Assembly: GCA_016125455.1 (NCBI GenBank)
Contig: WGLS01000003.1
Coordinates: 1 to 64,000, forward strand
Origin: Alphaproteobacteria bacterium
GTDB taxonomy: Bacteria > Pseudomonadota > Alphaproteobacteria > Caulobacterales > Parvularculaceae
Direction: 5' to 3'
Length of the DNA: 64,000 nt
The notes under the pieces were generated by a model. The model made no database searches. It was not told the DNA's origin and saw only the letters and a list, made by a program, of their open reading frames with translations. Positions 1,486 through 59,104 of this stretch are shown one piece after another. Within the stretch, counting starts at the first letter, position 1. Each line of letters begins with the position of its first letter. A program made the position numbers and the translations under genes.

Positions 1486-2127
1486 CTATGCGGGCGTCTT
1501 TGGCGGGTCGACCAATGACCGCGCCGAAGCGGCCAGAAACTTGACGTACTCGGACGCCAGGGTCCGCCAGTCCCGTCGTAGCATCGGGGCCGTAGCTGCG
1601 TCACTGGCGACGGGATAGGCAATGACCTCGACGCCGGCGAGGCGGCGGCGCGTCTCAAGGGTCGCCCGGGGCATATGGTAGTCAGACGTAATGATCACGA
1701 CGCGCTTGAAGCGATGCAGCGCCGCCCATTCCTCGACTTCGCTGGCGTTGCCGACCGTTGTCGACGCCCGGTGGCCAATATCGACGCAACAGGCAAAGCG
1801 GCTTTCCGGACCGCCCCAATGGGCGTCGACCTCGTCCCGGCTCGTGTCCGGGTTGACGCCGGAAATCAGCAGACGATCGCCAGCGCCGCCATTCAACAGG
1901 TTCATGGCGGATTCGATCCGCGCCTTGCCGCCCGTGAACACCGCAAGCCCGGTGCCCTTGTCGAATGGCGGCATTGCCTCGCTGGCCGCTGCGGCGGAAA
2001 TCTTTGCGATGCGCTCGGAAAACGCCACAAGGCCGCCGACGAACGCGACGGCGGAGAGGCCGAGGGCGGCGAGCGCCAGTCTCATCGAGAGCGTCTCAAC
2101 GGGATTGTCCTCCGAGGCATCGGCCAT
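1486..2127 (-). CDS. YdcF/SanA-family protein (DUF218)
   Basis: A 213-residue DUF218 protein with one N-terminal membrane anchor (about residues 15-35). The domain shows the family's nucleotide-fold signatures: LAVFTGGKARIESAM near residue 63, GDRLLISGV, ASTTVGNASE and TSDYHMPRA near residue 148. DUF218 proteins (ElyC, SanA, YdcF) are linked to envelope integrity, but the biochemistry is mostly unresolved. It lies between ftsX and plsC on the same strand, which suits a cell-envelope role. The C-terminal extension (RTLASEYVKFLAASAR) is typical of alphaproteobacterial members. Confidence 0.85.
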   Translation of the reverse strand: MADASEDNPVETLSMRLALAALGLSAVAFVGGLVAFSERIAKISAAAASEAMPPFDKGTGLAVFTGGKARIESAMNLLNGGAGDRLLISGVNPDTSRDEVDAHWGGPESRFACCVDIGHRASTTVGNASEVEEWAALHRFKRVVIITSDYHMPRATLETRRRLAGVEVIAYPVASDAATAPMLRRDWRTLASEYVKFLAASARSLVDPPKTPA

Positions 2128-2158
2128 GTTCCGGGCCAGGGCATTTCTACCCGGGATA

Positions 2159-3232
2159 TTAGAGCGCTTCCTTAAGGGAGCGCAAAACGGTCAGGCGCGC
2201 GGTCAGCGACGTCGCAAGGCAGATCGTAATGGGCACGAGCGTCATTGGCGCGAATGTAACAGGCGAGGTCTCGAATGTCGGCAGGAAATAGCTTTCCGCG
2301 CCCCCGACCTGGGCCCCGAGCGTCAGCATGAACATCGCGGCCGCCGCGACCAGAACGCCGATCAATGATCCACGAAGGCAAATGACGAAAAACCGTCGCT
2401 GGACCTCCTCAGCGATGAAGTCGTCCGTTGCGCCGACCAGGTGCAATATGGCGATGACATCAGCGTTCGCCGCGAGGCCGGCCCGGGCCGCGAATGCTGC
2501 AATGGCGCAAGCCGCTCCCGTTATCAGGACGAAGACGCCAAGGCTCAGGAGCTGGCCCCGGCGCGCAGCTCGGGTCAATGACGCGTTCCACTTGCCGTGG
2601 TCGTCAATCGTGACGCCTGGCGAGATGGCGGCAAGGTTCGCCCGGATTGCGGGCAGGGCTTCACGACCGCGCGCGTCCGCCTTCAGGTCGATCAAGGCCG
2701 GTATAGAGAGGTAGGCGCCAGCCGCGTCGCCGAGCCACGGACGGAGTAGCGCGGCCGCCTCTTCCGGCGTCCGGACGCGAATGTCCGTCAGGCCATCGAC
2801 CTCGGCGAGGACGGCAAGCGCCGCCTCGGTTCGCTCCTCGATTTCCGACGCGCTGACGCCCTTGACCTGAACCGTCATCGACTCGGCCAGATCATCCGTC
2901 CATCGATCGGTTGCGATTGCAATGATCAGCATGCCCGCCAGCGCGAGAGCGGCGAGCGCCGACATCACGGCGATGACAGCCATCATCGGCGCGCCGGTCG
3001 CGCCTCCTTCCGGCAGCAAGGGGGAGGCGGACGACAGGGCGCGCCTGAATGCCGCAATGAAATCATGTCCAGCCTCCGGCGCGGCCTTTTCTGCGACCGC
3101 AAGATCGTCCGGCTTCGGACCGCCCGGCGATACCGCCCGCGGCAGCGGCCCGGCCGGGCCGGCGCCGCCGATCGGGGCGACGCCTGGCGGCTGGCTCTGC
3201 GCGCCGGGGCTTCGTTTCCGTCGACGGCTCAA
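2159..3232 (-). CDS. ftsX: Cell division protein FtsX
   Basis: A 357-residue integral membrane partner of FtsE. FtsEX transmits cytoplasmic ATP hydrolysis to periplasmic peptidoglycan hydrolase activation at the septum. A proline/glycine-rich cytoplasmic N-terminus (about residues 1-75) precedes the first membrane helix. A periplasmic loop of about 120 residues with the repeated EERTEAALAVLAEVDGL-type pattern follows, then three C-terminal helices. The start overlaps the ftsE stop (3229-3232), so the two are translationally coupled. The N-terminal extension is longer than in Escherichia coli FtsX and of unknown role. Confidence 0.92.
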   Translation of the reverse strand: MSRRRKRSPGAQSQPPGVAPIGGAGPAGPLPRAVSPGGPKPDDLAVAEKAAPEAGHDFIAAFRRALSSASPLLPEGGATGAPMMAVIAVMSALAALALAGMLIIAIATDRWTDDLAESMTVQVKGVSASEIEERTEAALAVLAEVDGLTDIRVRTPEEAAALLRPWLGDAAGAYLSIPALIDLKADARGREALPAIRANLAAISPGVTIDDHGKWNASLTRAARRGQLLSLGVFVLITGAACAIAAFAARAGLAANADVIAILHLVGATDDFIAEEVQRRFFVICLRGSLIGVLVAAAAMFMLTLGAQVGGAESYFLPTFETSPVTFAPMTLVPITICLATSLTARLTVLRSLKEAL

Positions 3233-3927
3233 GCGTTCGCCCTCCAGGCTTCCGACCGGGCGGCGGTCTCGGCCTGCGTCAGTGCGCCGTTTTCGAGGCG
3301 CATGGATTGCTTGCCGAGCGCCTTTACGAGGTGAAGGTCATGGGTGGCGATGACAACCGCGGCGCCGAGACGATTAAGCTCAACAAAGAGCTTCATGATC
3401 TTCTCGCCCATTTCCGGATCGACATTGCCGGTCGGTTCATCGGCTAGGATCAGATCCGGCTTTGAAACCAGCGCCCGGGCGAGCGCGACGCGCTGCTTTT
3501 CGCCGCCGGAAAGGGTCTGCGGCCGGGCCTCCATGCGGTCGCCAAGGCCGACCCAGTTTAAGAGTTCCCTTACGTCTTCCCGGTAGTGAGCTTGGTTAAC
3601 GCCCGCAATCCGCATGGGCAACGCGACGTTTTCGAAGGCGGTCAGGTGATCCAGAAGCCGGAATTCCTGAAAGACGACCCCGATGCGGCGGCGAATGGCC
3701 GGCAGCGCTTCGCGCGGCGCGTCCGTCACCTCCTCGCCGAACAGGGTCAGGCGTCCGCGACTCGGCCGGTGCGCAAGATAGATCAATTTGAGAAAGCTCG
3801 TCTTTCCGGCGCCCGACGGCCCGGTCAGGAACCGGAATTCGCCGTCGCGCAAGGCGAAATTGACGCTCCGGAGCACCTCCGAACCGTCCTCGTACGTGAG
3901 GCCGATGTTTTCAAAGCCGACAATCAT
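3229..3927 (-). CDS. ftsE: Cell division ATP-binding protein FtsE
   Basis: A 232-residue ABC ATPase. Walker A is GPSGAGKTS (residues about 36-44), the signature is LSGGEKQRVALARAL, Walker B is LILADEPTG, and the switch His lies in VVIATHDLHL. VVFQEFRLLDHLTAFENVALP is the FtsE-type Q-loop region. It pairs with FtsX, whose start codon overlaps its stop. It is transcribed divergently from the zinc-ribbon gene at 4080, so the 152-base gap 3928-4079 should hold promoters for both directions. The length is normal for FtsE. Confidence 0.95.
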   Translation of the reverse strand: MIVGFENIGLTYEDGSEVLRSVNFALRDGEFRFLTGPSGAGKTSFLKLIYLAHRPSRGRLTLFGEEVTDAPREALPAIRRRIGVVFQEFRLLDHLTAFENVALPMRIAGVNQAHYREDVRELLNWVGLGDRMEARPQTLSGGEKQRVALARALVSKPDLILADEPTGNVDPEMGEKIMKLFVELNRLGAAVVIATHDLHLVKALGKQSMRLENGALTQAETAARSEAWRANA

Positions 3928-4079
3928 TCCATCGCGTCCGGTGACGTCCGCCGCAGCGCGCTGCGTCGATGCTTAACGAAGGTCGCCGCCCGGCGGAAGG
4001 CCGATGGCGCCCTCCCGTCCTGCAGCGAGCGGATTGAACGGGCGGCGTCGCAAGGATGTCGGGGTGTAGTTGGCCGCGT

Positions 4080-5702
4080 ATGATTATCACCTGCCCAAGC
4101 TGTTCGACGCGATACGACGTCAATGAGGATGGATTTCATCCGAACGGACGGACCGTCCGATGCGCCGAGTGCGCAATGAGCTGGTTCGTCCCGGCGCCGG
4201 AACCTGTTGAGGAACTGACTATCGCGAGCCGCGTCGACCCGCAGCCTGCACGCGTGAGCGCTGGCGCTGGCGCCGGCGCCGGGGAAAGCGGTCGTCGGTT
4301 CGCCATGTTTGATGACCGACGCGACGCGGCGAACGAGGCGCGCGAGGGCCGTTCAACGGCAGATGACCGTACGACAGCGGACGATGGCAAGGGACGCGCC
4401 GATGTCGATGACGGCGATGAAGCGTTGCCGCCCCGTGACCGCTGGGGCCGCTTTATGCCGAAACGGAACAACCAGGACCGTGACGACCGTCCCGACGACG
4501 CCAGCGGCAAATCATCCGATCACGCCGCGTTCGACAGGGCCGACGGTCGCCGGGATAATGGCGACAAGCGCCGCGCGCCGACCTTCGACAATCGCGCCCA
4601 TGGCGACCGCGAGGACGACGACGTCCTTTTCCCGAAAGACAGTCATTCGCGCGACGCCACTGCCGGCCGACACCGTTCGTCCGGGGCGCGGCGGGCCGCT
4701 GGGGACGACGACGGCGATCGCGCCGGCGATCGCGAGACGAGGCGGCGAGATCATTCGGATTACGGGCGGAACGATAGCGACCTTGAGGGGGTTCGACGCG
4801 GCGTTGATCGCCGGGCGACTATTCTCGATGCTGATTTCGAAGATGTTGAACCAACATTTCGGCGCCGCGAACCCGCCGAGGAAGACCGATCGACCGGCGG
4901 CATGTCCAATAGCAGGCACGCCAGCGGGCCAGACCTCAGATCGGATGGCAGATCAGGCGCTGGATCCGACGGCGGGACCGACACGCGCGCGTTTGGGCGC
5001 CGGCCGGACCACGAGTCGCGTGATTTCACCCTGACCGACGCGGATCGCGCCGAACCGCGGGAAACGATAGGGCGGCGATTGCGCGAGGAACGTCGCCGCG
5101 CAACGGCGCTGATGAAGGTCGAGGACCTCGACCCGATTGCCGAACGACTCTTCAATGACGAATTCTTCGCTGCGCTGAATGTTCAGCCCCGGGAACTTGA
5201 GAAGGCGATCCGCAAGGCGCGTCGGCGCGCCGAAGCGCGCGAGAAGAACCGGATGACGCCGCTCAAGGCCGTTGGCTGGTCAGCCTGGCTTGGCGCGATC
5301 GCTGCGACCGTCTTTGTCGCCTACGCCTATCGCGACCAGGTCGTGCTGCGGTTTCCGGGCGTCGCCCGCGCCTATGATGCGATCGGGATCGAGGCGGCTC
5401 CGTTTGGGGTCACGATCGAGAATGTCGCGCAACGCGTCGCCATGTCGACGAGCGGACCGACGATCGAAATTGCCGGCGTGCTTCGCAGCGCCGTCGACCA
5501 TGACGTCGTTGCGCCGCGTCTGCGGGCCGACGCAATTGGAACCGGCGGCGTTGTTCTCGCGTCCTGGACCTTCGAGGCCGATGCGGAACGAGTGCGCAAG
5601 GGCGGCGAAGTGACGTTCGTCACGCGCCGGCCGGCGCCGATCGGCGTCGTCGAGATTTCGCTTTCCTTTGCGGACGCGTCCGCCGCCGCCTCAGGGCTCT
5701 AG
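4080..5702 (+). CDS. Zinc-ribbon (MJ0042-type) protein with Asp/Arg-rich linker and membrane-anchored C-terminal domain
   Basis: I take the ATG at 4080 because the protein then begins MIITCPSCSTRYDV, the standard start of MJ0042-type zinc ribbons. The four ligands are CPSC and CAEC within the first 35 residues. Residues of about 80-345 are low-complexity and dominated by Asp, Arg, Gly and Ser, a polyampholyte linker. A single membrane helix (GWSAWLGAIAATVFVAYAY) follows near residue 400. The last 110 residues form a DUF3426-like extracytoplasmic domain. Members sit beside ftsEX in many alphaproteobacteria. The function is not established. Confidence 0.8.
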   Translation: MIITCPSCSTRYDVNEDGFHPNGRTVRCAECAMSWFVPAPEPVEELTIASRVDPQPARVSAGAGAGAGESGRRFAMFDDRRDAANEAREGRSTADDRTTADDGKGRADVDDGDEALPPRDRWGRFMPKRNNQDRDDRPDDASGKSSDHAAFDRADGRRDNGDKRRAPTFDNRAHGDREDDDVLFPKDSHSRDATAGRHRSSGARRAAGDDDGDRAGDRETRRRDHSDYGRNDSDLEGVRRGVDRRATILDADFEDVEPTFRRREPAEEDRSTGGMSNSRHASGPDLRSDGRSGAGSDGGTDTRAFGRRPDHESRDFTLTDADRAEPRETIGRRLREERRRATALMKVEDLDPIAERLFNDEFFAALNVQPRELEKAIRKARRRAEAREKNRMTPLKAVGWSAWLGAIAATVFVAYAYRDQVVLRFPGVARAYDAIGIEAAPFGVTIENVAQRVAMSTSGPTIEIAGVLRSAVDHDVVAPRLRADAIGTGGVVLASWTFEADAERVRKGGEVTFVTRRPAPIGVVEISLSFADASAAASGL

Positions 5703-5776
5703 CCGGCAACATGGATAGCTGGCGACGCGGTAAGTTGGCGCTTTGCGCATCGCTGCGCGCGGGCTAGGCATCATCC

Positions 5777-6346
5777 ATGCGCACCTTGTTTACCGAAAGA
5801 CAGATTGCCGCCCGGATCGACGAACTGGCCGCCGACATCGCGGCCAGCCTCGCCGGTTCGGACCGCCCGATCGCAGCGCCAATCCTCACCGGCGCACTGT
5901 TCTTCGCCGCGGACCTTATCCGCGCCATGCACGCTCGCGGTTGCGACGCGCTTGTGGATTGCGTCCAGCTCGGCAGCTATGGCGGCGCGCGGACCTCAAG
6001 CGGCGTCGTTCAGCTCCTCAAGGATTTTTCCGTCGACGTCCAGGGCCGGGATGTCCTGTTGATCGACGACGTCCTCGACACTGGCAGGTCGCTTCATTTT
6101 GGTCGCGAAATGTTGCTCGCCCGGGGCGTCAACCGTGCGCTGACGTGCGTGCTGGTGCGCAAGGCGACGGGGAGGGCGGAGGACCTTTCGCCTGATTTCG
6201 TCGGGTTCGAAGCAGGCGCCGAGGATTTTCTTGTCGGGTACGGAATGGATGACGCCGGCCTGGGCCGCGGCTTGCCGTTCATCGGCGCGGTCGACCCGGT
6301 CGCGGACATTGCCCCGAATAAATCCAATTCATCAGGCGATCGGTAA
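5777..6346 (+). CDS. hpt: Hypoxanthine/purine phosphoribosyltransferase
   Basis: A 189-residue type I phosphoribosyltransferase. It would join hypoxanthine or guanine to PRPP for purine salvage in the cytoplasm. The PRPP loop is VLLIDDVLDTGRSL (about residues 92-105). An upstream ILTGALFFAADLIRAM segment matches the PPi-binding loop region of HPRTs, and the LGSYGGARTSSG flexible loop is present. Late aromatic and Gly-Asp residues (FLVGYGMDD) match the purine-binding end. The length is normal (about 180). Base specificity cannot be read from sequence alone. Confidence 0.88.
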   Translation: MRTLFTERQIAARIDELAADIAASLAGSDRPIAAPILTGALFFAADLIRAMHARGCDALVDCVQLGSYGGARTSSGVVQLLKDFSVDVQGRDVLLIDDVLDTGRSLHFGREMLLARGVNRALTCVLVRKATGRAEDLSPDFVGFEAGAEDFLVGYGMDDAGLGRGLPFIGAVDPVADIAPNKSNSSGDR

Positions 6347-6446
6347 AAATCGAACAATCGACTTCAGCGGCCTTCCATACTTCTCGCCGATTCATGAGCG
6401 AAAGTTCATCTGGTCGGGCGCGATTGAGCGGAGTTGGTTTGTCGGG

Positions 6447-6845
6447 ATGGTTCAGGAAGTTCGACATCTTTTCTTCACGACAAAGGAAGTGATCGACGCG
6501 CTGGACGGGTTCCGCGCGCGGCACAAGGAATTTCTCCCGGCGGGCGTTATTCGCCTGAAGGGGGTTGCGAAGGACGGATCCGTCCGTGTCGAAATCGACA
6601 TGAGCTATGGCGTGCGCTCCCAACGCGGATCATTCGATATCGCCAGCAATGACGTGCTGAGGTCGCTGATTTGCGCGTGCTCGGATCTTGGCATTCCCCT
6701 GCCGCGCGAAGGCAAGAAAAGCCTTGCCGGATCCGTCGCCGGCGTCGTTCTGAAGGTCCGCGTCGACCTCGCCGCCTTCGCCGAGGGCAACGATGTTTCT
6801 CTCGACGCCTTCGAGCATGCAACGCCGCTTGAGAAGGCCTCCTAG
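6447..6845 (+). CDS. Conserved-looking hypothetical protein (132 residues)
   Basis: I prefer the ATG at 6447, which gives a 132-residue soluble protein starting MVQEVRHLFFTTKEVIDALD. The longer frame back to 6231 overlaps hpt and has shadow-like composition. There is a moderate GGAG about 13 bases upstream. No signal peptide or membrane helix is seen. The N-terminal helix, an IRLKGVAKDGSVRVEIDMS strand pair and a helical C-terminus suggest a compact alpha/beta fold. I do not recognise the family. It stands alone between hpt and the convergent M20 peptidase. Confidence 0.55.
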   Translation: MVQEVRHLFFTTKEVIDALDGFRARHKEFLPAGVIRLKGVAKDGSVRVEIDMSYGVRSQRGSFDIASNDVLRSLICACSDLGIPLPREGKKSLAGSVAGVVLKVRVDLAAFAEGNDVSLDAFEHATPLEKAS

Positions 6846-6951
6846 AGCGTTTTTCGACGAAGCGGCCCGCGGCCCATCGTCAATCCGGACTGCAAGGCCA
6901 TCGCCTGGGGCGATGCATCGATCCAGATCGAGTGCGGGTTGCGCAAGCGCT

Positions 6952-8424
6952 TCAGTCGCGACCGGCCGCGTTCGCCAGGAATGCCGCGTACCAGTCGACC
7001 GCCCGTTCGAGATTGTCGATCGAGACGGCTTCATCCGTACCATGTATTTGCTCAAGGTCGTCCGCTTCATAGATGAACGGCGTAAACCGATACCGGTCCG
7101 CGGCGACGTCGCCATAGTGGCGACTGTCGGTCCCCTGAAGCGTCAGCATCGGCGCAATGGGGACATCGCCAAATATCGGCGCGATCGTCGACGCAATCGC
7201 CCCATAGCCAGGCGAGGCGACCGATGAGACGGAGCTCGGCTCATTGCCAGTGATAATCTCGACCTCGACGTTCTCGTCATTCACCAGTCGAGCCGCGCGG
7301 TCCCTGACGGCCTCGACGTTATCCCTGGGATGGATCCTGTAGTTGACGATCGCTTCGGCGGTTTGCGGCAGGATATTGGATTTGACGCCGCCGCGAATAA
7401 TGGTTGGCGCCGTCGTCGTTCGAAGCGCAGCGGCGGTAAGCGGCGATTTCGCAAGTCGCCCCTTAACGAAGCCGCCTGTCAGCCAGAGATTGGACAGGGC
7501 GAAGCGCTGCGGCTGCGGCATTGCGGGCGCGAGGCCGTTCAGGAAGTCCTTCACGACGCCGTCGATTTCAAGCGGGTAGGGATTCTCGTTCACCGTGACG
7601 ACGGCGCGGGCGACTCGCGTGACGGCGGTCTGCGCGCCCGGCGTCGAGGAATGGCCGCCGTCGGCGCGCGCAGTGAATTTCAGGTCGACATACCCCTTCT
7701 CCGCAATGGCGATCAGGGCGACTGGCGTCGTTGCGCCATCGATGACGCCGTCGCTCACGCCGGACCCTTCGTCTAGAGTGAACGCGAGCCTGACGCCGCG
7801 AGCCTTAAGCGTCGCTGCAATCTGCGCTGCCCCCGCCCGGCCACCGACTTCTTCGTCATGGCCGAAGAGCAGGTAGATGTCGCGGACCGGCGCAAAACCG
7901 TCTCGCGCAAGACGCTCGACCGCTTCCATCATCGCGACAAGGCTGCCCTTGTCGTCAAGCGCGCCCCGTCCCCAGACCCGGCCATCGGCGACGACGCCGG
8001 CAAACGGGGGATGGGTCCACGCCGATATCGTTTCGGGTTCGACCGGGACGACATCCATGTGGGCAAGGAGCGCGATCGGTTGGCGATTCGCGGCCGCGTC
8101 AGCCGAAGCGGTTGCCGGCCAGCGATAGATAAGGGACGCGCCGCCAATCACCTCACGTTCGGCGATCGCGTGAAAAGCGGGGTAGGCGTCGGCGAGGAAA
8201 TCGGCGAGGGCCGAGAATGGCGCGCGGTCAAATGGCGCGTCTTCGCCGGGCGAGATCGTCGCGTATCGGATGATTGCGGCGAGATGTTCACTCGCAAGGG
8301 ACCTTGCTTCGCCTTCGCTGTCGCCGGCGCCTTCGCTGGCGCTGGCGGCGCTTGCGACCACCGACGCCGAAGCGATCATCAGAATACGTCGCCAGGCCTC
8401 CGTCGACTTGCGCTTTGTGGCCAT
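6952..8424 (-). CDS. Exported M20-family metallopeptidase (PM20D1/CPS1-like)
   Basis: The start at 8424 (MATKRKSTEAWRR) is preceded by GGAGAG and gives 490 residues with a signal-peptide-like N-terminus. The zinc site is clear: HMDVVP (H122, D124), GALDDKG (bridging Asp near 157), HDEEVGG (Glu 191/192), and a late histidine in EQIHGTDE. Large M20 enzymes of this type hydrolyse N-acyl amino acids or dipeptides. The lid domain follows residue 215. The substrate is not predictable. It is divergent from the HDAC-like gene; the 82-base gap between the two start codons (8425-8506) must carry both promoters. Confidence 0.88.
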   Translation of the reverse strand: MATKRKSTEAWRRILMIASASVVASAASASEGAGDSEGEARSLASEHLAAIIRYATISPGEDAPFDRAPFSALADFLADAYPAFHAIAEREVIGGASLIYRWPATASADAAANRQPIALLAHMDVVPVEPETISAWTHPPFAGVVADGRVWGRGALDDKGSLVAMMEAVERLARDGFAPVRDIYLLFGHDEEVGGRAGAAQIAATLKARGVRLAFTLDEGSGVSDGVIDGATTPVALIAIAEKGYVDLKFTARADGGHSSTPGAQTAVTRVARAVVTVNENPYPLEIDGVVKDFLNGLAPAMPQPQRFALSNLWLTGGFVKGRLAKSPLTAAALRTTTAPTIIRGGVKSNILPQTAEAIVNYRIHPRDNVEAVRDRAARLVNDENVEVEIITGNEPSSVSSVASPGYGAIASTIAPIFGDVPIAPMLTLQGTDSRHYGDVAADRYRFTPFIYEADDLEQIHGTDEAVSIDNLERAVDWYAAFLANAAGRD

Positions 8425-10507: not shown

Positions 10508-10706
10508 CGTTGCGGCGGCGGTACACCCCCGGCGCTTTTCCCGGTCATTCGGCCGATCGTTGTTTGGCCTCGCCGCCGCGATGCGGTATTCAGGACCATT
10601 GTTCGGGGCCGGGCCCGCGTCCGCGAGGGGCGGCGAGGCAGCCGGCGCTGTTTTCTGAATAGGGGGCGATCCACAGCTTCCCTTCGTTTTTCGAGTGAGG
10701 ACCACG

Positions 10707-12620
10707 ATGGCCGTTGAAACGCCGCTGCTCGACCAGGTGAAGTATCCGGCGGACTTGCGTCAGCTTGAACGCGGCCAGTTGCGCCAGCTCGCTGACGAAC
10801 TCCGCGCGGAAGTGATCGACACGGTCTCGGAGACCGGCGGCCACCTTGGCTCAGGCCTTGGCGTGGTCGAACTGACCGTGGCCATTCATTATGTCTTCAA
10901 TACCCCGGATGATCGCCTCGTCTGGGACGTTGGCCACCAGTGCTATCCCCACAAGGTCATCACCGGGCGTCGGGACCGTATACGGACATTGCGCCAGGGC
11001 GGCGGCCTCTCAGGCTTCACGAAGAGGTCCGAGAGCGAGTACGATCCGTTTGGCGCGGCGCACGCCGCAACCTCCATCTCCGCGGCGACCGGCTTTGCCG
11101 AGGCTGCGCGGCACCTTGGCCAGAACACGACCTCGATTGCGGTCATCGGCGATGGCTCGATGTCCGCCGGCATGGCCTATGAAGGCCTCAACAATGCCGG
11201 CCATCTCGGGTCGAAAATGGTCGTCATCCTGAACGATAACGACATGTCGATCGCGCCGCCGGTCGGCGCGATGAGCGCCTATCTCGCGAGGGCCTCGTCG
11301 TCGGGCGTCTATCAGGGGTTCCGCAAGTTTTCGAAGCAGCTCTCCAAGCGCTTGCCGCGCCGCGTCTATGAGGCGCTCGGCCGCGCCGAGGAGTACGGCC
11401 GCGGCATGGTTACCGGCGGCACGTTGTTCGAGGAACTCGGCTTTTATTATGTTGGGCCGATTGATGGCCACAATCTCGACCATCTAGTGCCGGTCCTAGA
11501 GAATGTCCGCGACATGGAAGAAGGGCCCGTCCTTGTTCACGTCGTTACCCAGAAGGGCAAAGGCTATTCGTACGCGGAAGAGGCGGCCGACAAGTATCAC
11601 GGCGTCGCGAAGTTTGACGTCGTGTCCGGCAAGCAGAAAAAAGGGGCGGCGAACGCGCCCGCCTATCAGAAGGTCTTCGCGCAAACGCTCGTCAACCTCG
11701 CGGAGACTGACGACAAAATCGTTGGCGTGACGGCGGCGATGCCGTCCGGCACGTCGCTCGACATTTTCGAGAAAGCCTACCCGACGCGCATGTACGACGT
11801 CGGTATTGCCGAACAGCACGCCGTGACGTTCGCGGCCGGCCTTGCCGCCGACGGCATGAAGCCGTTTTGCGCGATTTATTCGACTTTCCTCCAGCGCGCC
11901 TATGACAGCGTCGTCCACGACGTTGCGATCCAGAACCTGCCCGTGAGGTTTCCGATGGACCGCGCCGGCCTCGTTGGCGCGGACGGCCAGACCCACGCCG
12001 GCGCGTTCGATATCGCATATCTTGGGTGCCTGCCGAACATGGTGCTGATGGCGGCCGGCGACGAAGCCGAGCTCGTGCACATGACGGCCACCGCGGCCGA
12101 ATACAGTGAAGGGCCGATCGCCTTCCGCTATCCCCGGGGCGAAGGGATGGGCGTCGAAATGCCGGCGATCGGCAAAATTCTCGAGATCGGAAAAGGCCGA
12201 ATTGTCCGTGAAGGAACGAAAGTGGCCATTCTGTCGCTTGGCGGACGCCTTGTGGAAGCGCTGAAGGCCGCCGAAATGCTCGAGACGCAGGGGCTGTCGA
12301 CAACCGTGGCGGACGCCCGCTTCGCCAAGCCGCTCGATGGCGACATGATCCTGCGGCTGGCGCGCGAACACGAGGCGATGATCGTTGTCGAAGAGGGCTC
12401 GATGGGCGGCTTCGGCGCGTTCGTGCTGCAGTTTCTCGCCGCGCAGGGCGCTCTTGATTCCGGCCTGAAGATCAGGTCCATGCACCTGCCGGATGTCTTT
12501 CAGGACCAGGATAGTCCGTACAACATGTATGAGTTTGCGAAGCTGAATGCGCACCACATCGTTGAGCGCGCGCGCGAAGCCCTCGGCATGTCAGCGGCTG
12601 TCGTGAGCCTTCACGGCTAA
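10707..12620 (+). CDS. dxs: 1-deoxy-D-xylulose-5-phosphate synthase
   Basis: A 637-residue thiamine-diphosphate enzyme of the MEP isoprenoid pathway; it condenses pyruvate with glyceraldehyde 3-phosphate. The ATG at 10707 ([10 protein letters not shown]) follows GAGGACC. Key parts are [11 protein letters not shown], the [16 protein letters not shown] diphosphate site, [11 protein letters not shown], the pyrimidine-domain [16 protein letters not shown] with its Glu, and [16 protein letters not shown]. The length is normal. The 250-base leader (10457-10706) has no gene. ispA, often directly upstream, is absent here. Confidence 0.97.
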
Positions 12621-12867
12621 ACGGCGCAAGTCGCCGTCGTTCTCTCAAGGCAATGGCGCCTCGCGGCCTCGTTGCGTCGGGGAATGACGCGCTTGGTGCG
12701 CGGAATTGGCGCAATAAGTGCGCTTGATCGGACGGGCCCGGCTTTGTACCCTCAATACATCCAGTCTCGACCGCGCTCGGCCGGAGGCCATCGATCATGT
12801 TGATGGCAAATCGAGATTGTCAGTTAGCGTCGCGTCGTCGCGTCCGATGACTGCAGGCGCTTTGCCT

Positions 12868-12889
12868 GTCCGGCGCTGCATTGCCGGAC
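12868..12889 (+). other. Hairpin in the leader of the 38-residue microprotein
   Basis: GTCCGGC (12868-12874) pairs perfectly with GCCGGAC (12883-12889) around an eight-base loop, followed by GTTTT. It lies 25 bases before the microprotein's start codon. It could act as a weak terminator or attenuator. The 294-base gap 12621-12914 otherwise shows no gene. Confidence 0.4.
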
Positions 12890-12914
12890 GTTTTCCATTG
12901 AACAGGAGACGCCA

Positions 12915-13031
12915 ATGGCGAAGAAAAAAGTGAAATCGCTTCGTAAAGAGATCAAATCCCGCAAGAAGCGCATCGCTCGTCAGGAAACCAAGCTCAAGAA
13001 GGCCCGCAAGGCGCTGAAAAAGGCCGCCTGA
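12915..13031 (+). CDS. Lysine/arginine-rich microprotein (38 residues)
   Basis: An ATG at 12915, preceded at ideal distance by AGGAGAC, opens a 38-codon frame starting MAKKKVKSLRKEIKSRKKR and ending KKAA. Nineteen of 38 residues are Lys or Arg and only two are acidic. Regularly spaced V, L, I and A residues would give one amphipathic helix. No signal peptide is present. A strong terminator begins 45 bases after the stop, so this looks like a monocistronic gene. A role binding nucleic acid, for example ribosome- or nucleoid-associated, is a guess from charge alone. I do not recognise a named family. Confidence 0.65.
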   Translation: MAKKKVKSLRKEIKSRKKRIARQETKLKKARKALKKAA

Positions 13032-13076
13032 CCCGACGTTTCAGTGCGTGCCGGAGCATATGCCTTCCGGCCGAAT

Positions 13077-13105
13077 GGCCTGCCGCTCGCGCGGCGGGCC
13101 TTTTT
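13077..13105 (+). terminator. Rho-independent terminator after the microprotein gene
   Basis: GGCCTGCCGC (13077-13086) pairs with GCGGCGGGCC (13091-13100), ten pairs with one wobble around a TCGC loop. Five T residues follow immediately (13101-13105). This is a textbook intrinsic terminator for rightward transcription. Confidence 0.9.
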
Positions 13106-57708: not shown

Positions 57709-58641
57709 TTACTCTCCGCCGCCGACGCGAATGAGCGTTCTGTTCAGCGCCCTGATCTCATCCTTCAGCTCGGCAATCTGTCCGGCCGAGGCCTTGATTT
57801 GTGTTTCTGTATTGGCGGCTAGCGCCGCCTCAAGCGCGCCGACGGCGCCGGCAATGTCGCCATCTGAAACCAGATCAGCAAAGGACGCCTTGGCGTCGCT
57901 TCGGCCGCCCCGCGTAGGTTCGGTTTCCTGCGCCAGCCAGTCTTCGAGATCCGAGTAGAAGCGCCCTTGCGCCTGGCCTGCCTGCAAGTCAAGGAAACCG
58001 ACGATCAGGCTGCCGCCCAACCCGAACAGAGACGAGGAGAACGCGGTGCCCATGCCGCCAAGCGGCGCCTGAAGGTTCTGGATAAGCTGGGCGACCGCAT
58101 CCTCGGCCGCGCCGTCCGTCGCCAGGCCGCTTATCGTCGCCGCGACCGCGTTCACCGTTTCGAGCAGTCCCCAGAATGTCCCTAGCAGTCCAAGGAAAAC
58201 AAGCAGGTTGCCAATATACCTTCCCATCTCGCGACCTTCATCCATCCGTGCCCCAACGGAATCGAGGATGGCCCGCGCTGATTCACTGGTCAGGCCGGCT
58301 TGCGAGTCGCGCGCCTTTTTCAGGATCCGCGTTGTCGCAATGATAAGGTCGGGCGCCCGCCGGCGTCGGGTGTCGCGCTCGTAAAAGGCCTGGATCCAGC
58401 GCGATGCTGGCGCGATCGCTCCAGCTTGCCTCAGATTGAAAACGATGCCGACGAACAGGACGAAAAGAATAAGCCCGTTGAGTGCAGTATTTGCATTGAA
58501 CGCGTCAACAAGAAGGGATGTCGGCTGCGGGCTGTAGGGTGACAGAAAATAGATGACGACAGCGACCACTGCGAGAAACAGCACCATGTTCAGGATATAG
58601 CCGCCCGGTTTTGTAAACCGCACATTGTCGATCGTCGCCAT
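57709..58641 (-). CDS. MotA/TolQ/ExbB-like proton-channel protein
   Basis: A 310-residue membrane protein with four hydrophobic helices. MVLFLAVVAVVIYFLSPY and ALNGLILFVLFVGIVFNL come early; YIGNLLVFLGLLGTFWGLLE and GTAFSSSLFGLGGSLIVGFL form the pore region, with the family's LGTFWGL motif. A soluble C-terminal tail of about 90 residues ends in a coiled coil (LKDEIRALNRTLIRVG). It leads a three-gene leftward unit with the OmpA-like and cysteine proteins. This pair is found in many alphaproteobacteria; its job is unknown to me. Confidence 0.85.
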   Translation of the reverse strand: MATIDNVRFTKPGGYILNMVLFLAVVAVVIYFLSPYSPQPTSLLVDAFNANTALNGLILFVLFVGIVFNLRQAGAIAPASRWIQAFYERDTRRRRAPDLIIATTRILKKARDSQAGLTSESARAILDSVGARMDEGREMGRYIGNLLVFLGLLGTFWGLLETVNAVAATISGLATDGAAEDAVAQLIQNLQAPLGGMGTAFSSSLFGLGGSLIVGFLDLQAGQAQGRFYSDLEDWLAQETEPTRGGRSDAKASFADLVSDGDIAGAVGALEAALAANTETQIKASAGQIAELKDEIRALNRTLIRVGGGE

Positions 58642-59104
58642 CGATCTCGCCCCTCATTCGTCAACTAACGTCGCGTTACCCTCAGACTATGTCAGTTTTT
58701 CGAACTGAACGAGACCCGAACGGCAACAATGGAATTCGCTCTAGGGCGCGGCGAAGTTTGTGGCGCGACCGGCGGCGTCGCTTGTCGCGGAATGGTTGTG
58801 CGCAAAAAATGCGCTTTTCACTTGACGACAGTTTTGTGACATGTATATGAAGGTAATGTGACAGATATACGACGGATTTAAGACGGCTTCGTCGGCGTCC
58901 GGGCGACATGTTCCAGAAGGATCTGAAATCGCCCCTGCCAGTCAGTAGACAGCCGCCACCGTCGGCCCTCTGCCGCTTCGTCCAGTTTCGGCGGGTCGTC
59001 CGTCGTGGCTGATTTCGGAATCCGCTTCGGGAAAGCCCCGGAGCGGAGGCGGTGCCGCTCGGCCTTGAATCGGACCGGGGGCGTTATTGCCTAGGAGAAT
59101 GTAA
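58642..59104 (+). promoter_or_regulatory. Intergenic region with a sigma-70-like promoter and paired GTGACA direct repeats
   Basis: No gene is supported in these 463 bases. For rightward transcription, TTGACG (58822-58827) and TATATG (58844-58849) are spaced 16 bases, a good housekeeping-type promoter in an AT-rich patch. TGTGACA recurs at 58835-58841 and 58857-58863, 22 bases apart, one copy inside the spacer and one just after the -10. That geometry suits a repressor dimer or tetramer. The 5' leader to the gene at 59105 would be about 250 bases. The leftward MotA gene must also start here. Confidence 0.45.

Follow-up and report, generated by a model that had tools for sequence, protein, structure and literature searches.

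The window analysed here comprises the first 64,000 nucleotides of contig WGLS01000003.1 of an alphaproteobacterium of the family Parvularculaceae (assembly GCA_016125455.1), and all window coordinates refer to this stretch. On the plus strand, the dxs ORF for 1-deoxy-D-xylulose-5-phosphate synthase (10695..12620, with the start codon of the ORF list; the true start may be further in) is followed by an intergenic leader (12621..12914) and then by a micro-ORF at 12915..13031, stop codon included, which runs from an ATG at 12915 to a TGA at 13029-13031. The encoded peptide of 38 residues, MAKKKVKSLRKEIKSRKKRIARQETKLKKARKALKKAA, contains 14 K, 5 R, 2 E and no D, that is, 19 K or R in 38 positions and a net charge of +17, and AlphaFold2 predicts for it a single helix over residues 2-37 (mean pLDDT 94.6). 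A Shine-Dalgarno motif, AGGAG (12904..12908, plus strand), lies 6 nt before the ATG. An earlier note on this DNA had proposed just such a gene, of 38 codons, preceded by an AGGAG site and coding for a helix that is half Lys/Arg, and both the letters and the structure prediction bear it out.

The same note framed the gene by two hairpins, one about 25 bases upstream and a terminator 45 bases downstream, and both structures are present at the locus. On the plus strand, a terminator-like leader hairpin of 9 pairs followed by TTTTCC (12867..12890) ends 24 nt before the ATG, and an intrinsic terminator (13077..13105), made of a 10-pair stem at 13077-13100 (9 of the pairs GC) and TTTTT, starts 45 nt past the stop. 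Between 12500 and 13300, five terminator-like sites were found against a shuffle mean of 1.0, three of the five being this same downstream terminator. Relative to dinucleotide shuffles, folding z-scores are -2.47 for the leader (12855-12914), -2.82 for the 3' side and just -1.71 for a longer leader (12780-12914). The Shine-Dalgarno region is also paired in the predicted minimum-energy fold of 12855-12914, and its masking by the leader hairpin may be a form of translational control of the microgene. An Rfam search over the window returned two tRNAs only and no leader-RNA family. As a trait of the family, however, the two-hairpin framing is unsupported, since no alignment was obtained between the window leader and that of the same-genus genome G002; what recurs upstream is instead an RHH-like gene with a palindrome, or a GCGCA-N5-TGCGC palindrome present at 6 of 12 Parvularculaceae loci.

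The ORF at 12915-13031 is a genuine conserved protein gene, because 15 alphaproteobacterial loci taken together give a pN/pS of 0.19 (pS 0.74), as against 2.06 and 2.03, with many stops, in the two other frames of the same loci. Compared pairwise with each of 14 relatives, the window ORF gives values of 0.11-0.31. Homologues (E<=1e-3) occur in 7 of 61 genomes, a set made up of the window genome and its genus, family and order relatives; the window genome is one of the seven, and the peptides of the other six share 82-87% identity with its own. Conservation of the frame and a synonymous bias, on which the earlier note had staked its gene beforehand, are thus both present. Its remark that automated annotation tends to miss genes of this size is illustrated by three plasmids: the homologue is absent from the PLSDB gene table (described as incomplete) in Acinetobacter NZ_CP080579 and Salinivibrio NZ_CP050268, and is buried within a longer called ORF in Salinivibrio NZ_CP114591.

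The wider family was collected with one degenerate DNA pattern over a species-genome collection, which gave 60 stretches, 59 of them stand-alone micro-ORFs. One of the 60 matches (L063) was rejected as a family member, and L010, a true member with an upstream RHH-like gene, was missed by the pattern and is not part of the locus counts. The hosts belong to the Alpha-, Beta- and Gammaproteobacteria, Desulfosarcina and the Desulfuromonadia. Members are 32-43 residues long (32-42 in the 60 distinct sequences, 43 in one later sequence), and the 60 distinct sequences contain 42-51% K+R, have a net charge of +11 to +19 and include no F, W, Y, C or P. Eight columns are invariant in an alignment of 59 rows, where I, L, V or M occupies position 13 in 100% of the rows, positions 20, 27 and 34 in 98%, position 9 in 95% and position 6 in 76%. 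Position 30 holds L or A, position 37 mostly A, position 16 R, and position 23 Q or H. Read from the aligned sequences, this is a heptad in which two core positions are polar and conserved. Along the predicted helix the hydrophobic positions 6, 13, 20, 27 and 34, plus 9, 30 and 37, are spaced as in a leucine zipper, with mostly K/R elsewhere, and from heptad and predicted helix together we infer that the helices would pair into coiled coils, their oligomeric state having the same basis.

The distribution of the family is patchy: in addition to the 7 of 61 relatives, convincing members were found in 4 of 385 alphaproteobacterial genomes (the window genome among the four) and in 5 of 274 gammaproteobacterial genomes, two of these five being already in the family set. 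Weak alphaproteobacterial matches in G205 and G148 were set aside as partial, since they cover 17 and 16 positions of reading frames that are 126 and 616 aa long. Searches with the window microprotein or a few relatives against Pfam, NCBIfam, PHROG, PADLOC and PDB gave no match that was convincing or above a curated cut-off, and the best sub-threshold matches are weak and of coiled-coil type (Pfam E=0.002, PHROG E=0.012). As judged by sequence comparison, the family is without match to any named family of the databases searched. A tblastn search of plasmids and phages with a Photobacterium member returned nothing, and the low-complexity filter of BLAST may hide such sequences. Among the listed titles and abstract openings of open-licence PMC papers on polyphosphate (polyP) granules and polyP-binding proteins, no description of the microprotein family was found.

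Directly upstream of the microgene, on the same strand and at a gap of 16-159 nt, a small RHH-like gene is present in 39 of 63 distinct loci (68 loci, five of them duplicated; several close relatives remain, in Sneathiella, Pseudoalteromonas and Motilimonas). Its product has the core K-K-D-S-Q-L-h-I-R ... L-C-[DE]-x-L-D-T-S-A-A-R-E and matches Pfam RHH_9 with E=5e-4, just under the cut-off, and a PHROG repressor family with E=1.8e-4; the best PHROG match (1.5e-6) is a family without known function. A model of the monomer has an extended N-terminal segment and helices at 18-31 and 34-50, with no strand assigned. This layout and the palindrome described below may correspond to those of Arc/CopG-like RHH repressors, but the partner gene falls outside any named family. 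A sequence search of the PDB gave no convincing match and a Foldseek search with the model four matches, all with E >5; because no solved structure matched convincingly, we keep the label 'RHH-like'.

A TGTATATACA-type palindrome (at most one mismatch, within 480 nt upstream; mononucleotide shuffles served as control) occurs at 31 of the 39 loci with an adjacent RHH-like gene and at 7 of the 24 without. At these seven it lies 59-109 nt before the microgene (207 nt at L026), and for five of them RHH is found elsewhere: L026, L074, L080, L077 (13 kb off) and L071 (2.5 kb downstream). Among genomes of palindrome-less loci, several of them small or fragmentary assemblies, RHH was found in none of the 12 searched, and the comparison of 5/7 with 0/12 gives a one-sided Fisher p of ~0.002, calculated by hand. 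Two Photobacterium loci have the palindrome and no RHH match in the genome. The lack of a palindrome at L047 says little, because the sequence covers 114 nt upstream only. Of the 24 genomes searched for RHH in all, 18 are those of loci holding none; it was not found in 14 of these 18, and was found for L026, L074, L077 and L080. With the RHH query, 15 plasmid records were retrieved, with the microgene just downstream in 3 of the 4 examined, and no phage. The palindrome tracks RHH presence and is a candidate operator, and the RHH-like protein probably represses the microgene unit in most relatives.

Some related arrangements were seen by eye. An RHH-like gene preceded by GTATATAC-type sites is present at L017 and L018 (G003, G016), together with a terminator-like stretch and with no evident microgene downstream. 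A more distant RHH group (L019-L023, including C26:998-1132 of the window genome) precedes unrelated genes, with a GTGTATCC...TACAC element just upstream in 4 of the 5 loci. The stand-alone gammaproteobacterial copies at L033 and L039 have TGACGTCA-type repeats upstream in place of TGTATATACA, hinting at another regulator.

In G002 the gene order is dxs-RHH-microgene and in the window it is dxs-microgene, dxs being the upstream syntenic anchor common to the two. The equivalent interval of G002 holds both the RHH-like gene and the TGTATATACA palindrome, and the window interval shows no visible RHH remnant and no such palindrome, so that, judging by synteny, the RHH gene appears to have been lost from this interval in the window lineage. 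The lone RHH-like match in the window genome (C26, 44% identity) was rejected as the missing partner, belonging to the more distant group with other neighbours. Three relatives without an adjacent RHH-like gene had their genomes searched; G015 and G032 gave no RHH match, and the window genome gave this distant one only. The window leader does contain the GCGCA-N5-TGCGC palindrome, as GCGCAATAAGTGCGC at 12709..12723 (plus strand), which at the six Parvularculaceae loci precedes either the microgene or its RHH operon; L003, L005 and L028 are likewise RHH-less and have the same palindrome. Across 474 kb of family loci, with duplicates counted, the palindrome is limited to these Parvularculaceae upstream sites and one occurrence elsewhere (L032). 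Two copies in the window are not unusual by themselves, as 15 of 100 shuffles reach two. The second copy, at 58800-58814, lies between divergent ORFs (57709-58641 on the minus strand and another from 59105 on the plus strand) and might point to a further target of the same regulator.

Genes of polyP metabolism recur in the neighbourhood of the microgene. Within 4 kb, PPK1, PPK2 or CHAD genes were found at 8 of 66 distinct loci, all on the microgene strand: PPK1 near L040, L050, L052 and L064, PPK2 in L042, L044 and L099, and CHAD in L042 and L071. The number of such loci expected is 0.34, or 0.55 with a pessimistic 5 copies per genome, and the probability of seven or more (L050 and L064 being counted once) is 8e-8, or 2e-6 with 5 copies. 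This expectation assumes ~3.1 polyP genes per genome and 4.1 Mb; with the gene counts obtained from 27 genomes, 40 and 21 when fragments are counted, and one PPK1 added, the figure comes nearer to 3.3 polyP genes per genome. In the covered flank of the other 58 of the 66 loci, that of the window included, there is no PPK1, PPK2 or CHAD gene, and 17 of 63 loci have 3 kb on both sides. The gene order is tight at L042 (RHH-micro-PPK2-CHAD, with a divergent Ppx), L044 (micro-HHH/Lys-tail-PPK2) and L071 of Malonomonas (micro-CHAD-ParA-RHH-HHH/Lys-tail). At L040, L050, L052, L064 and L099 the polyP gene is 0.5-1.8 kb off and an operon is not clear; a long opposite-strand ORF lies in between at L040, and L050 and L064 are related. 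The PPK2 gene of L099, one of three new loci from a separate gammaproteobacterial sample outside the pattern scan, lies 1.06 kb after the microgene. Ppx homologues on the opposite strand adjoin two loci: L042, where Ppx is found upstream of the RHH gene, and L064, where it is found past PPK1.

A Pfam scan of up to two neighbours per flank, which covered 144 of 198 ORFs after redundant genera and ORFs of doubtful status had been removed, found PPK1 domains in 3 proteins, PPK2 in 2 and CHAD in at least 1, among the best 25 of 128 and 114 families. In the same best 25, aminotransferase, GGDEF, response-regulator, HATPase and methyltransferase families had at least as many matching neighbours; we discount them because they are families with many copies per genome. 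Since the scan was limited to those 144 ORFs and to the best 25 families, all 66 loci were searched again by phmmer for PPK1, PPK2, CHAD, Ppx, ParA, CYTH and HHH, which gave no further PPK1, PPK2 or CHAD locus and added two Ppx neighbours. The window genome itself encodes PPK1, PPK2 and CHAD once each, all on other contigs. CHAD is present in 7/7 relatives with the microgene versus 30/61 overall, and within the same taxonomic family in 7/7 versus 26/37, which is not significant (p ~0.06, by hand); PPK1 and PPK2 occur in 60/61 and 55/61 relatives, and the microgene in 7/61.

A further recurrent neighbour is found after the microgene on the same strand at eight distinct loci (L027, L044, L046, L067, L071, L074, L075 and L079), namely the genes that we refer to as HHH/Lys-tail. 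They code for small HHH_5-type proteins with long Lys-rich tails, which resemble AlgP in composition and differ from it in the head domain. At L040, the product of the gene that follows the microgene has a sub-threshold HHH_5 match, and no HHH/Lys-tail protein was found in the 61 relatives. In Desulfuromusa, a same-strand row of Ppx/GppA, His-phosphatase, CHAD, ParA, CYTH, RHH and HHH/Lys-tail genes is located ~13 kb away from the microgene, on the contig that also carries it; an ORF on the opposite strand separates the phosphatase from CHAD. Apparent polyP clusters with a ParA-type ATPase are seen at L105 (Desulfuromusa, G455:C12:48000-63000), positions 1626-8251, and at L071, positions 3230-6433. 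The ParA-CHAD-CYTH-RHH-HHH cluster of the Desulfuromonadia is a candidate ATPase-driven partition system for polyP granules; a ParA homologue of this type occurs at one of the 66 loci (L071).

Taken together, we consider it moderately probable that the microprotein is a polyP-associated basic coiled-coil protein, in most relatives probably under repression by the RHH-like protein. Because some relatives adjoin genes that make, bind or degrade polyP, the microprotein probably binds or packages the polyP stores of the cell. Its helices would associate as short coiled coils whose outside is densely covered with lysines. Through these lysines the microprotein would attach to polyP chains or to the surface of the granules, and would thereby condense, coat or tether them, either by itself or together with CHAD and HHH/Lys-tail proteins and, in certain species, a ParA ATPase. 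In most relatives the RHH-like protein would repress the unit via the palindrome and control its dose; in the window lineage, where RHH appears to be lost, the leader with its GCGCA-N5-TGCGC palindrome and a hairpin that may hide the ribosome-binding site, along with the terminator, would provide other control instead. A more ambitious version, in which the microprotein is a core subunit of an as yet undescribed system for organising and inheriting polyP granules together with the RHH-like repressor, HHH/Lys-tail, the polyP binders CHAD/CYTH and the ParA ATPase, serving as adaptor or condenser on the polyP side, is tentative and stands well short of probable. The earlier note had suggested binding to RNA, DNA or anionic membrane; a polyanion was a fair guess, but the recurrent neighbours point to polyP, which was absent from that list.

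Several known systems offer a comparison. Like AlgP of Pseudomonas aeruginosa, the microprotein is lysine-rich and has no enzyme domain; AlgP is much longer, with proline-containing KPAA repeats, whereas the family comprises 32-43 residues, has no proline in 60 sequences and is predicted to form a heptad helix. AlgP is found on polyP granules, is proposed to contact polyP via its lysine-rich C-terminal domain, and has a net charge of +55 (PMC9239181), as compared with +11 to +19 in our family. CHAD proteins, or phosins, are described as polyP-binding proteins (PMC6537752) and are neighbours of the microgene in L042 and L071, but the domain has 228 positions and the CHAD domain PF05235 had no match in the window microprotein or in two relatives. 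Lysines mediate polyP binding by E. coli YihI, and in PASK motifs (at least 75% D/E/S/K in 20 residues) polyP binding is likewise lysine-dependent and needs no folded enzyme domain (PMC12345225). No microprotein reaches that proportion (0/59; maximum 70%, window 55%), and a helix is predicted for the microprotein, in contrast to the YihI region, for which disorder is described (PMC12345225). The ParA-type ATPase in the CHAD-RHH-HHH cluster of Malonomonas and Desulfuromusa also recalls the McdB-type adaptors of ParA/MinD. McdB uses positively charged residues and is described as having an invariant tryptophan (PMC13052382); the microprotein family has no tryptophan, and its cargo would be polyP and not carboxysomes.

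Other explanations were weighed against polyP binding. The microprotein might be a histone-H1-like protein of the nucleoid, or one that binds RNA; as a basic dimer of coiled-coil type it would compact DNA or attach to rRNA, and would have polyP neighbours solely through the clustering of stress genes. Half of its residues are K/R, its net charge is +17 and it is predicted to be helical, and a neighbouring protein carries an HHH_5 domain, which is usually a DNA-binding fold. DNA binding is also described for the lysine-rich domains of AlgP and PhaF (PMC13052382). We nevertheless regard this as unlikely, given that PPKs and CHAD recur beside the microgene beyond expectation and that no nucleoid or ribosomal-protein family figures in the best 25 of 128 and 114 neighbour families, where an rRNA methylase and a pseudouridine synthase are each seen a single time. 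It is compatible with polyP binding, since one protein could bind both DNA and the granule. It is improbable that the microprotein is a phasin-like peptide of PHA granules or one that binds anionic membranes: it has an amphipathic heptad helix, and PhaF, a PHA protein, has a lysine-rich domain in common with AlgP (PMC9239181), but the same best 25 of 128 and 114 neighbour families include no PHA synthase or phasin, and a narrow hydrophobic stripe, with no Trp, Tyr or Phe in 60 sequences, fits a coiled coil better than insertion.

The two-gene order with RHH first, its palindrome and the patchy spread would also suit a toxin-antitoxin or addiction cassette, with an RHH antitoxin and a tiny cationic toxin; some copies are on plasmids, one is upstream of BrnT/BrnA, and one RHH-like protein has a weak RelB/DinJ antitoxin match (E=0.023, below the cut-off). 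Such a cassette is nonetheless very improbable. At 24 of 63 distinct loci the microgene has no adjacent RHH, and no RHH was found in 14 of the 18 searched genomes whose locus lacks it, so that a free 'toxin' would be tolerated; L017 and L018, conversely, keep RHH with no evident microgene. PADLOC (two microproteins) and Pfam toxin families gave no match. Finally, the loss of RHH and TGTATATACA, both present in G002, and an R in place of a nearly invariant K at position 10 might suggest that the window copy is a decaying remnant of a microprotein being lost. This we consider the most improbable, as the pN/pS values of 0.11-0.31 against 14 relatives and the intact Shine-Dalgarno motif and terminator argue for a maintained gene, and L003, L005 and L028 are RHH-less with the same GCGCA-N5-TGCGC.

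The organisation of polyP granules in bacteria is largely an open question, and in the table row that a 2025 review gives to these granules, AlgP of P. aeruginosa is the sole positioning factor (PMC13052382). The microprotein family is a protein family that was overlooked because of its small size. If it does associate with polyP, a protein of 38 residues tied to PPK1, PPK2 and CHAD would represent a minimal, synthesizable polyP ligand.
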